A stretch of 32,727 nucleotides of DNA. Source: Bacteroidaceae bacterium (GTDB taxonomy: Bacteria; Bacteroidota; Bacteroidia; Bacteroidales; Bacteroidaceae). The DNA is taken from contig JAFXVU010000253.1 in the NCBI GenBank assembly GCA_017534705.1, forward strand, positions 1-32,727, given 5' to 3'. The stretch's first letter is position 1; every line of letters begins with the position of its first letter. The notes beneath the pieces are model-generated. The model was given only the letters and a program-made list of their open reading frames with translations, made no database searches and was not told where the DNA came from. The position numbers were made by a program, and so were the translations under genes. This document shows, one piece after another, positions 65-11,128 of the stretch.

Positions 65-155
65 CCATCAGCCGTAGACTTATACGCATCACCATTTTCA
101 CACGTCCAAATTAGCCCATATGCTTGCAAAAGTCATATTATACGTATAACAGATG

Positions 156-186
156 TTGAAATCGCACGAAAAACGACGTATTTTTG
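156..186 (+). promoter_or_regulatory. Bacteroidetes-type promoter signal inside repeat copy 1
   Basis: A -33-like TTG at 156-158 and a -7-like TATTTTTG at 179-186 are separated by 20 nt, matching the Bacteroidetes sigma-ABfr consensus (TTTG, 19-21 nt, TAnnTTTG). It points rightwards into the convergent hybrid sensor gene, so any transcript would be short or antisense to that gene's 3' end. Confidence 0.5.
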
Positions 187-231
187 CATCGAAAGGTTAA
201 TAACAGTCAATCATAATGCCATGAAATCACC

Positions 232-333
232 AATAAGCCATAAAAAGTGACTGCCGTAGTGTTGGAATACTTCAAACGTCATGATCAGCACTCAAGTCCA
301 TCACGCTTGTCGCGTCACTTTTAATGGCTTATT
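232..333. repeat. inverted repeat with 20-nt arms within the repeat element
   Basis: The left arm 232-251 begins AATAAGCC and ends AGTGAC. The right arm 314-333 is its reverse complement with one mismatch. A 62-nt loop lies between. The same structure, with a slightly worse right arm, sits at 11015-11117 in copy 2. It could be a long RNA stem or a small MITE-like unit; I see no clear target-site duplication. Confidence 0.6.
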
Positions 334-407
334 TAGCTTTTAGCGTCAGATGCCTCAGAACGGTTCGTGTAAAGATTGTTGTTGCTTGTTCCAAAAGCGG
401 GAATCTC

Positions 408-3400
408 TCATCCTTGAGTTCTGTAGTCTTTCGGTAATTTGCCGAACATTTTCTTGAAGTTCTTGGTGAAATAACTTGGTGAGGAGAAACCTGTCAGTTC
501 GGCAATGTGCTGGGTTGTGAGGGAGGTCGTCCGCAACAGCTTAGCAGCGTGTTTCAGACGTACTGTGGTGATAAACTCGCTGGGTGACTGGCCAGTGATG
601 CTGTTGATTTTCCGATAAAGCGTCATTCTGCTTGTGCACATATCGTTGCTAAACTGTTCAACGTTGTAATCCTTGTCGGCAAGATGAGACTCCACCACCC
701 TTTGGGCCCGCGTAATCAGTTCCTCGTCAATTGGTGAATATGTCAGTTGAGCCACTTCGTGTTCTTCATCGTGCTGGTATTTTTGCTGAATGGAGGCACG
801 CTGTTCTTGTAAATGCTTGATACGATTAAGCAATACGGCAGGACTGAAGGGTTTGGTCAAATAGCAGTCGGCTCCCATTTTGTACCCTTCAAGTTTTGAC
901 TCTTCGCTGGTTTTGGCAGTGAGCAAGATGACGGGGATGTGGCTTGTCTGCTCCGAGGACTTAATATGTCGGCACAATTCAAACCCATCCATGACAGGCA
1001 TCATGACATCGCTGATGACGAGACAAATATTGTCTGTTTCGGAAAGCAGTTGCCACCCCTGCTTTCCATCACTGGCTTCAACAACATGGTAGCCCTCGTC
1101 GCGCAATTGGTCGGCAATGAGCGTGCGCATTTCCAGATTGTCCTCCACCAACAAGATGCTGTCGGTGGTCTGGTCTCTGGCTATTTCACCAATCGCGTCA
1201 ATATTTTCATTCTTAGGTTCCGGTGCTCCGTGGTTTTCGTCCGCCGTAGCGCCCCCTTGGCAAATCAAAGGCATCACGAACCAGAAATCAGACCCTTTGC
1301 CCAACTGACTTTCCACGCCTACTTCCCCGCCATGGAGTCTGACGAGTTCACGTACCATGTGCAGACCAATGCCACTTCCACCATGTGATTTGCTATTCTC
1401 CGCTTGGTAGTAGCGGTCGAAGATATGAGGCAGGTCAACAGGAGGAATGCCCACACCGCTATCGATGACATGCACCGACATGCGGTTGTCGCCGTTTTCT
1501 GGACCTTTCAGCAACACTTTCACATATCCACCCTCAGGTGTGAATTTCATCGCATTGCTCAGCAGGTTCCAGATGATGTGATGCATCTTCTCGTGGTCGA
1601 AAGTAGCGTAGATCGGTTCATTGGGATGCTCATACGACAAAGTGATGCCCTTTCGCTGGGCCAGGGGATGGAAAGCATCGACTGCTGCCAGTATGAATCC
1701 GCTGATATCAGCATGACGAGGCGAGAGTGTCTGGACTCCTATCTCCATCCGGCGGAAATCGAGCAATTGATTGACGAGTTGTTGCAGTTCCAAGGCATTT
1801 CGCTGAATGCTCTCCAATCTCATCTGGTCGCGTTCGGACAAGGCCTTCTTACCAGCGAGCATCTGCTCCACTGGTACCAAGATAAGCGTTAATGGTGTGC
1901 GCAGTTCGTGACTGATGTTTGTGAAGAAACGGAATTTGAGTTCGGTGAGTTGTTCTTCCATCTGTGTCATGCGTTTACTGCGCACATACAGAGAGTACCA
2001 CCTGAGCACCCAAAAGGCCAATGCCGCAAGACATGCCGCATAGAGCGTGTATGCCCACCATGTTTCCCACCAGGCAGGCAGACGATGCAAAAGGATGACC
2101 TTGACTGGTTGCCCCCAGATGCCTTGTCCGTTGGTTGCACGCACTTCTACGGTGTAGTCGCCTTTCCTAAGTGAAGTCAGCACGATGGTGTTGTTGCCTA
2201 CGGGTAGTTCCACCCAGTCTCCCATACTATCGCCCCAAAAGCCTTTTTTCAGTAATCTGTAAGCGAACTGAACCTGAGAGGAAAGATGGTGGCGCAGTGT
2301 GGTAAGCCTTAACTCAACGACATTGGCATGACAATCGACATCAAGTGTCTGGCGGTCTTGACCAATGTATTCAATCTTGTTGTCAATGATCACGGTGGAA
2401 ACCCTGGCTTTTGCATCGGATTGGGCAAAGTCTTGAAAACGGGTTGAGGTCAAGATGCAGTAACTTTCTTCTTCCCCCACGCAGACCGAGTCGCCTTGAG
2501 TCACATTCAAGGTAGAGAAATGGTCCATGTGTATCATAGGATGGTTACAAAGCAGCGAGCGACAATTGTCGGACTCTCTGTCCCATTCCTTGACACTTTC
2601 GCGCGTGAGTACCCATATATGGCCATTGGAATCTTGTTTCACATCCAATATTTTCTTCCCTTGTGGGTTGCTGAGTTGAGGCACATAACAAGGAGCCTTA
2701 TCCGTATGGGGATGAAAGGTGTAAACACTCCCGAGGACCGTGCCTATACACAATGTACCGTCGTTGAGCAACGTCAGGCACGAACATGTCTCGAATTCCT
2801 TCAACAAGGTAGTTGGTTGTTCCTCCCCTTGGCGCAACATGCACAAACCAGTCTGACGTCCTTGGTAGAAGATGTTGCCGTCAGCATCATGTACGACACG
2901 TAAAAGGTCGGGCATCTTCTTTCGCATCGTCACAAACAGTGAATCGTCGTCGATCTGCCGTTTCCATCTGCCGGCGTATTTCAGAATGCCCTCATTGGCT
3001 CGTGGCAACATGAAGACATGGCTTGAAGCTCCTGAAACCCAAAGGTTCCCATACGGGTCGCGTGTGATGTTGCGCAGATAGTATTTTCCTTTGGGAAGTT
3101 GTTGTGTGATGGCGCATGGGCAAAGAGTGCCGTCTTCATCAAACTGATAGGCATACATTCCAGCCGCTGTGGTAACCCAAAGGAGTTCAGTGTGCAAATC
3201 CATCTCCATATCCAGTATTTCACCGATATCTTTGTTGTCGAGGCTGTATGTGGCGGGTTGAAATTCATAGATGGCGTTGTTGCCGACCATATTGGGGATG
3301 TATTTCACGACGCCTTTTCCCCATGTGCCTATCCAATAGCATCCATGAATTGAATCTTCCAACATACACTGCGGATCTATATCTTCCACCTTGGGATAGG

Positions 3401-10518: not shown

Positions 10519-10544
10519 AACATGTGTGAACTGCTATTTCAATG

Positions 10545-10552
10545 CAAAATTA
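10545..10552 (-). promoter_or_regulatory. -7 box for the GH2/peptidase transcript
   Basis: TAATTTTG on the minus strand fits TAnnTTTG and lies 27 nt before the ATG at 10518. A convincing -33 TTTG is not visible at the expected distance, which would suit an activator-dependent promoter driven by the hybrid regulator. Confidence 0.45.
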
Positions 10553-10677
10553 TGAATCATAGGTCATTTGACTGCTATTTCTCGGTATCAATAAATGGTA
10601 ATTCTGTAACAATCCGCACATGGACTGATTCGACAATGCTGCTGAGGTAGGTCTTTGGCGAAATGCACACTGCTTAT

Positions 10678-10887
10678 CACCTCTCCTGCCTCTTCAGGGT
10701 ACGTAGGCTGCCAGCCTGCGAAAAACTAACGACTAAAAGCAAATTGTTCCAAGTTGTTCCGTCGCATTCGCGGCGGCTCCCTCTTATCCCGTCAGGGATA
10801 TTGTTGTTCTTTGTTGTGATAAGTTGTTTCCATATTAATCATTAGCCTCCAGGCTGCAAGCATTATCCGCATCTCCATTTTCACACG
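10678..10887 (+). repeat. dispersed intergenic repeat A, copy 1
   Basis: The block starts CACCTCTCCTGCCTCTTCAG and ends in CTCCATTTTCACAC. It matches 11793-11999 over its whole length with scattered differences. It holds the palindrome-like core GGCTGCCAGCCTGCG, a GTTGTTCCGTCGC segment, CCCGTCAGGGA, and TAGCCTCCAGGCTGCAAG. It carries no credible reading frame. Its right end runs straight into the promoter-carrying repeat, so the two are parts of one composite block. Confidence 0.8.
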
Positions 10888-11128
10888 TCCAAATCAGCCC
10901 ATATGCTTGCAAAAGTCATATTATACGTATAACAGATGTTGAAATCGCACGAAAAACGACGTACATTTGCATCGAAAGGTTAATAACAGTCAATCATGAT
11001 GCCATGAAATCACCAATAAGCCATAAAAAGTGACTGCCGTAGTGTTGGAATACTTCAAACGTCATGATCAGCACTCAAGTCCATCACGCTTGTCGCGTCA
11101 CTTTTCTATGGTTTATTTAGCTTTTAGC
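10868..11128 (+). repeat. dispersed ~260 bp repeat, copy 2 (promoter-carrying element)
   Basis: Nearly identical to 85-344 and in the same orientation. The palindrome TTATACGTATAA is at 10921-10932, and the inverted-repeat unit at 11015-11117. The two copies flank the GH2-peptidase-regulator locus as ~10.5-kb-spaced direct repeats. Confidence 0.85.
10939..10969 (+). promoter_or_regulatory. Bacteroidetes-type promoter signal inside repeat copy 2
   Basis: TTG at 10939-10941 and a perfect -7 TACATTTG at 10962-10969 are 20 nt apart. The two bases that differ from copy 1 lie inside the -7 box, yet both versions keep the consensus. It points towards the small HNH-type gene about 400 bp away. Confidence 0.5.

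Follow-up and report, generated by a model that had tools for sequence, protein, structure and literature searches.

The window analyzed here is contig C89 (JAFXVU010000253.1) at its full length of 32,727 nucleotides. It belongs to genome G000, a rumen Bacteroidaceae bin of 3.33 Mb in 274 contigs that is 82% complete. The window contains two near-identical direct repeats, at positions 80-344 and 10863-11128, which very probably represent a duplicated stand-alone gene encoding a Y RNA. Y RNAs are the RNA partners of Ro60-type proteins, which handle damaged RNA. The duplicated Y RNA genes of this species are dispersed and lie away from any gene found for a Ro60 protein of the TROVE family. Comparison with related loci predicts that the repeats are transcribed and that their RNA is bound by a Ro60-type protein.

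The identification as Y RNA genes is based on homologous loci in two sister species, G001 and G003, in which five and three tandem RNAs, respectively, are located just upstream of a TROVE/Ro60 gene (contigs C14 of G001 and C42 of G003). These RNAs and the repeat have a signature in common, consisting of a lower stem, TGCCGTAG, TACTTC, a variable part, GC..TGT.GC and the closing lower stem. The TROVE protein of G001 matched Pfam TROVE (PF05731) with 93 bits and also the Ro60 von Willebrand factor A (vWA) domain; its NCBIfam Rsr score was far under the cut-off. Beside the G001 cluster, the opposite strand encodes RlaP, which is an RNA repair pathway polymerase, a small polynucleotide-kinase-related kinase and Thg1, and RlaP also adjoins the G003 cluster. 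A single RNA in each of the two sister clusters was matched by the Rfam model YrlA (35.5 and 34 bits, E 4e-4 and 1.2e-3), below its gathering score of 69. A covariance model, R1, was built from the eight RNAs of G001 and G003 only. In the window, R1 matched positions 243-321 and 11026-11104, each with 59.1 bits and E 5e-16, and nothing more at E ≤ 10. Across the four genomes of the genus it matched five RNAs in G001, three in G003, one in G002 and two in G000, the next candidate having 17.6 bits (E 0.24); these counts are lower bounds, with 150 of 273 candidates scored in G000. Both repeat copies are thus homologous to RNAs encoded beside a Ro60 gene.

The structure expected of a Y RNA, with an arm-closed stem, a conserved internal loop and a variable apical part, is conserved as well. 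An alignment of 11 RNAs (10 distinct) from four species had 19 invariant columns, with those of the internal loop among them; 87.6% of the cells at paired positions form pairs, and both sides have changed in 14 of the 18 pairs. The covariation score was 0.623, compared to 0.277 for shuffled alignments, none of which reached it in 500 trials, and to at most 0.286 when the pairing partner was slid. When the alignment was extended to 36 RNAs (35 distinct), both sides had changed in 17 of the 18 pairs and the score was 0.737 versus 0.235; this larger set was found by and fitted to R1, which biases it towards the model, and it includes two weak rows from G023.

Beyond the genus, R1 matched RNAs at E ≤ 0.01 in at least 10 of 399 genomes of the family, a lower bound since eight candidates were scored per genome. 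In G082, G321, G371 and G170 these RNAs are adjoined by TROVE genes whose products are 59-84% identical to the G001 TROVE protein over their longest matches. Other R1 matches had no TROVE gene in the fetched stretch: a second cluster of G082 (three RNAs), the clusters of G198 (three and two RNAs), two weak matches in G023 (22.5 and 21.5 bits), and those of G002 and G000. The second G082 cluster (L163:4928-5458, +) lies away from the TROVE locus of this single-contig genome and is divergent from Thg1 and a kinase gene. Two Y RNAs of G198 (L166:1886-2195, +) are followed 3.4 kb downstream by a reverse transcriptase gene (5576-7210), and the 9 kb fetched around them contained no TROVE gene.

The sequence-only reading of this DNA had described two direct, near-identical repeats bracketing a GH2-peptidase-regulator locus, and the repeats were confirmed. 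The copies have the same orientation at an offset of 10783, and ungapped comparison over positions 80-322 revealed six substitutions in 243 positions (84, 91, 112, 181, 182 and 215), with a longest exact run of 107 nt. In the 3′ 20 nt the copies diverge by a 1-base indel and substitutions. The Y RNA core of 79 nt is identical in both copies, and all six substitutions lie outside it, a clustering that is not significant on its own (Fisher p 0.18). When the repeat was searched against its own genome, the second copy was retrieved far above chance (E 7.8e-122). Within the 82%-complete bin there were two full copies, about 98% alike, rather than the dozens that would have told against the earlier reading. 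The third strong match, C88:1-57, was recognized by eye as the same site as copy 1 on another contig; it is not an additional copy, because C88 starts with the reverse complement of window positions 1-141. The two contigs overlap by exactly 141 bases (window 1-141 and L003:1-141), an overlap such as an assembler would leave at a k-mer break, here within copy 1. Since the window starts just 84 bases before copy 1, the left flank of this copy is known only via the overlap. Partial matches of 80-81% identity, limited to the promoter part, were present at window 27969-28062 (-) and C96:4496-4567 (-). No match to the repeat DNA was obtained in phage and plasmid collections. With two copies of about 98% identity, the proposed recent duplication or gene conversion holds up. 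The repeat is not anonymous DNA, however: each copy represents a conserved gene for a Y RNA, equipped with a promoter of its own. For this reason, the likeness of the copies may also reflect kept function.

Comparison of the copies and the R1 matches delimits a complete Y RNA gene unit on the plus strand at 80-344 (copy 1) and 10863-11128 (copy 2), each comprising an operator-like palindrome, a promoter-like sequence and the RNA. The 12-base palindrome TTATACGTATAA, located by pattern match at 138-149 and 10921-10932, is a putative operator. In each copy it is followed by a TTG positioned 20 bases ahead of a TAnnTTTG box. The promoter-like sequence of copy 1 (156-186) has a -33 TTG at 156-158 and the -7 box TATTTTTG at 179-186, separated by a 20-base spacer; that of copy 2 (10939-10969) has the corresponding -33 TTG and the -7 box TACATTTG at 10962-10969. 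The promoter consensus of Bacteroidales is TTTG-N19/21-TAnnTTTG, and we take the boxes of the repeats to be of this type. The Y RNA cores at 243-321 and 11026-11104 correspond to positions 1-120 of the R1 model and are devoid of a tRNA-like module. They are embedded in extended hairpins at 232-333 (z -3.2, -36.0 kcal/mol) and 11015-11117 (z -3.17, -37.0 kcal/mol), and in either case none of 200 shuffled sequences was as stable. A coding function of the repeat was rejected, as the open reading frames in the leader, judged by eye, are very short and unlike between the copies.

The palindrome-promoter is a rare motif. The pattern palindrome + GATnnTG + TAnnnTTG was scanned in the 399 family genomes and gave six matches, confined to three genomes that all belong to the four of the source genus; the reversed pattern, used as control, had no match in the listed genomes. 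Besides the two repeats, the sites are window 28062-28015 (-), C96:4567-4520 (-), G001:C58:16570-16523 (-) and G002:C278:172-220 (+). A match with three mismatches in G023 was left as weak. Neither the motif nor the core pattern occurred in viral contigs, and matches in genome contigs came only from G001 and G002. Downstream of the G002 site lies a sequence homologous to the repeat, with 78% identity over positions 54-256. In G001 it precedes a gene for a 90-residue protein (L015:6095-6367, -) without Pfam or NCBIfam match. On C96 it is located about 310-350 bases upstream of a gene encoding a protein with DUF2828 and DUF7788 (L013:2619-4214, -). The third copy in the window, found by pattern match at 28015-28062 (-), has no Y RNA, as models R1 and R2 gave no match there; its transcript would head towards tRNA-Leu(TAA) at 27602-27517. 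Between the motif and this tRNA gene lie about 400 bases containing two 36-base repeats (27676-27711 and 27790-27825).

The gene on C96 encodes a member of DUF2828, a family predicted to have the fold of Ro60. Of all domains, only DUF2828 and DUF7788 scored over the cut-off in the C96 protein, which does not reach the sequence threshold of Pfam TROVE. By sequence the connection is weak: a profile search of solved structures gave RO60 as best match without significance (E 0.039), a profile comparison of DUF2828 with TROVE aligned the vWA part only (probability 93%), and a single-sequence search of solved structures returned none. The fold was tested on the phage homologue L083, which is 91% identical to the C96 protein, with a model derived from 38 sequences (pLDDT 88.8, pTM 0.88). 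In a structural comparison the ten best rows were all Ro60/TROVE proteins (Z 15.2-19.3, 407-434 residues aligned), followed by a row with 11.1, and Foldseek at E ≤ 0.001 yielded three matches, all of them Ro60/TROVE. The modeled structure thus shows that the DUF2828 family has a Ro60 fold, composed of a helical ring and a vWA domain.

DUF2828 is rare in the family, with homologues in 3 of 399 genomes, and these include G000 and G002, the two members of the genus with stand-alone Y RNAs; the G002 homologue is a piece of 95 residues at a contig end that is 91% identical. Among phages it is common, with relatives in 651 phage records, several of which are annotated as Ro-like RNA binding protein. 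In Enterococcus phage EfV12-phi1 (L040), two YrlA-like RNAs with scores of 45.2 and 34.3 bits, under the gathering score, are located in the gap before a DUF2828-type gene. A protein encoded by a 334,687-base IMG/VR contig is 91% identical to the C96 protein over 531 residues. The C96 gene and the phage gene (L032:5001-6596, +) also have a leader in common, including the promoter-like box TACATTTGCAATG, which reads TACATTAGCAATG on C96; the phage box thus appears to have decayed on the chromosome. With a leader common to both and no palindrome at the phage locus, the C96 gene has the appearance of a jumbo-phage gene that was captured and set behind the host palindrome-promoter, phage to host being the direction of transfer that we infer.

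Taken as a whole, these observations suggest how the Y RNA genes could work. Transcription would start right after the -7 box and yield a leader of about 45 nt followed by a long hairpin, in which the lower stem, the conserved internal loop (5′ UGCCGUAG, 3′ GCUUGUCGC) and the upper stem would form a platform for Ro60-type ring proteins. Such binding is expected from the location of homologous RNAs beside Ro60 genes and from what is known of Y RNA biology. Seated on a Ro60-like ring, the Y RNA might control the access of misfolded or damaged RNA and serve as a tether for partner nucleases. The Y RNA genes and the DUF2828 gene on C96, encoding a protein of predicted Ro60 fold, carry the same genus-specific palindrome-promoter; they may be co-regulated and may act together, possibly in RNA quality control or repair. 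Our hypothesis is that the DUF2828 protein is the partner of the Y RNAs of the window. A protein swap would have occurred, in which the lineage acquired a jumbo-phage gene for a Ro60-like protein, brought it under the control of the Y RNA palindrome-promoter and dropped its native TROVE gene, while the RNA was kept and duplicated. We put this swap forward tentatively, as possible rather than probable.

Several points weigh against the Y RNA assignment or the proposed partnership. The sister RNAs were recognized partly via a motif also present in the repeat, so that R1 is independent in sequence and not in discovery. The Rfam models Y_RNA and YrlA did not match the repeat even at E ≤ 5 (copy 2), nor did they match the window at the gathering score, a score likewise reached by none of the TROVE-linked sister RNAs. 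With regard to subfamily, T-loop and D-loop motifs of the YrlA type are absent from the 79-nt RNA of the window, which places it outside the YrlA subfamily (RF02553). The conserved upper stem contains one U-U mismatch in the window copies, and it lies 2.8 kcal/mol above the minimum of their unconstrained fold. With respect to the partner, R1 did not match contig C96 or the phage locus L032, and the surroundings of 80 phage DUF2828 loci, up to a distance of 1.5 kb, gave nothing better than 13.9 bits (E 0.29); a direct linkage of DUF2828 to Y RNAs of the R1 class was thus not seen at these loci. A YrlA search covering 14 of the 80 loci had no match. YrlA matches outside the TROVE loci were rejected as Y RNAs, as most overlap tRNA clusters predicted by ARAGORN (tRNA-Gly/Leu on C171, C6, C8 and C77, tRNA-Pro on C249 and C28, tRNA-Trp on C47), and 12 of 14 control genomes also gave matches at the threshold used. 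An apparent resemblance to human Y RNAs was not used as evidence.

The strongest competing explanation accepts the Y RNA and concerns its partner, which would be an ordinary TROVE Ro60 absent merely from the assembly; the DUF2828 protein would then be an unrelated phage remnant and the likeness of the promoters fortuitous. The assemblies of G000 and G002 are 82 and 84% complete, R1-type RNAs occur at every fetched TROVE locus, none was found near the phage DUF2828 loci, and the single-contig genome G082 has a second R1 cluster apart from TROVE although a TROVE cluster exists elsewhere in it. On the other hand, TROVE was unmatched in both genomes with stand-alone Y RNAs, G000 and G002, and both sisters, G001 and G003, have it. 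Moreover, both G000 and G002 carry the rare DUF2828 (a chance of 3.8e-5 under independence of the genomes, an assumption that does not hold for sisters), and the DUF2828 promoter bears the same rare motif as the Y RNA genes. We regard this explanation as quite plausible, falling a little short of an even chance.

The sequence-only reading had also proposed that the repeats could let the catabolic locus between them be deleted or amplified. That they are mainly recombination sites, by which the GH2-DUF6055-HTCS locus is deleted, amplified or moved as a unit, agrees with their geometry, as the two are in direct orientation, about 260 bp long, 98% identical and 10.5 kb apart, and we nevertheless consider it improbable: the unit is an RNA gene that is found in G002 away from such a locus, and a relative that lacks the locus and retains one repeat did not turn up, though no search was made for one. 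Deletion or amplification of the 10.5 kb via the repeats is possible in principle but unsupported. Copy 1 is flanked by convergent genes, one for a hypothetical protein ending right before the repeat (C88:78-821, - of C88) and one for an HTCS regulator (408-4028, -), and copy 2 by a GH2 gene (7528-10518, -) and a small HNH gene at 11386. Given this arrangement, neither copy is positioned as a promoter for an adjacent catabolic gene, and that the two copies bracket the GH2 locus seems incidental.

An anonymous mobile or REP-like intergenic repeat, such as a miniature inverted-repeat transposable element, with only incidental resemblance to Y RNAs, is suggested by the abundance of small intergenic repeats in the window and by the first ~25 bases of the repeat, which recur in a REP-like family (10798-10888 and 11912-12002), and was rejected as highly unlikely on copy number (just two in the genome) and on the strong covariation, all the more since R1, derived from Ro60-linked RNAs of other species, matches only the two repeat sites in G000 and the G002 homologue retains all functional parts in a different neighborhood. 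At the ends of the repeats, a search for inverted pairs of ≥ 30 nt found none.

Further repeats and genes accompany the Y RNA genes in the window. The REP-like palindromic family (GCAGGCTGCCAGCCTGCG and companions) occupies 10702-10888, 11815-12002 and 28267-28345, and its tail makes up the initial ~25 bases of the Y RNA repeat. A direct repeat of 68 bases, with 99% identity and a terminator-like hairpin, is present at 11734-11801 and 13526-13593, on either side of a Fic gene (12281-13375). It is followed by a restriction island (13817-20629, +) with genes for a C5 cytosine methylase, an HpaII-type endonuclease, an AAA/EVE McrB-like protein and a McrC-like protein.

Two very probable Y RNA genes in this window illustrate that a seemingly anonymous repeat can prove to be an RNA gene. 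Our analysis delineates a class of Y RNAs in Bacteroidaceae whose structure covaries and which is beyond the reach of Rfam. It suggests that Y RNA genes can live apart from the Ro60 locus with a promoter of their own and be duplicated at such sites, and it draws attention to DUF2828, a phage-common family of predicted Ro60 fold. The rare palindrome-promoter common to the RNA and protein genes makes their co-regulation directly testable. In the part of the open literature covered by our searches, we found no prior account of the RNA class, nor of a role of DUF2828 in Bacteroidales as a Ro60-like partner, which does not establish novelty in print.

Ro60-type proteins and Y RNAs have been described in other bacteria and in phages. 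A Y RNA tethers the Ro60 homologue of Deinococcus to PNPase, and the Y RNAs of Salmonella are encoded with RNA-repair genes (PMC7790460). As in the rsr-yrlBA-rtcBA RNA-repair operon of Salmonella described there, G000 may control its Y RNAs jointly with a Ro60-type protein; in contrast to the operon, no RtcB, RtcA or RtcR was seen in the fetched stretches, the RNA and protein genes are unlinked, and control would be exerted via the palindrome-promoter. With Rfam YrlA (RF02553) the window RNA shares the lower-stem closure, and its 3′ internal loop reads CUUGUC compared to the consensus AcUuGucGcc; unlike YrlA, which has a tRNA-like module, the 79-nt copies are without T-loop or D-loop motif. 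For jumbo phages, TROVE proteins have been reported and read as RNA repair components (PMC7824862), and for Listeria phage CKA15 an Rsr-like protein near abundant putative Y RNAs (PMC12282133); we compare CKA15 as a Ro-like system. Phages with Ro-like DUF2828 proteins, e.g., Enterococcus phage EfV12-phi1, resemble G000 in having a Ro60-type protein, and have their Y RNA candidates nearby, whereas in G000 a chromosomal gene whose product is 91% identical to that of a jumbo phage is accompanied, at other loci, by Y RNAs that belong to the TROVE-linked class of bacteria. The window RNAs are of the same class as those of the sister TROVE clusters on C14 of G001 and C42 of G003, which have the same invariant TGCCGTAG, TACTTC and GC..TGT.GC and the same two stems. 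There, however, tandem RNAs adjoin TROVE with RlaP near, whereas the window, in a genome in which TROVE was not found, carries two dispersed copies, each with its own promoter.

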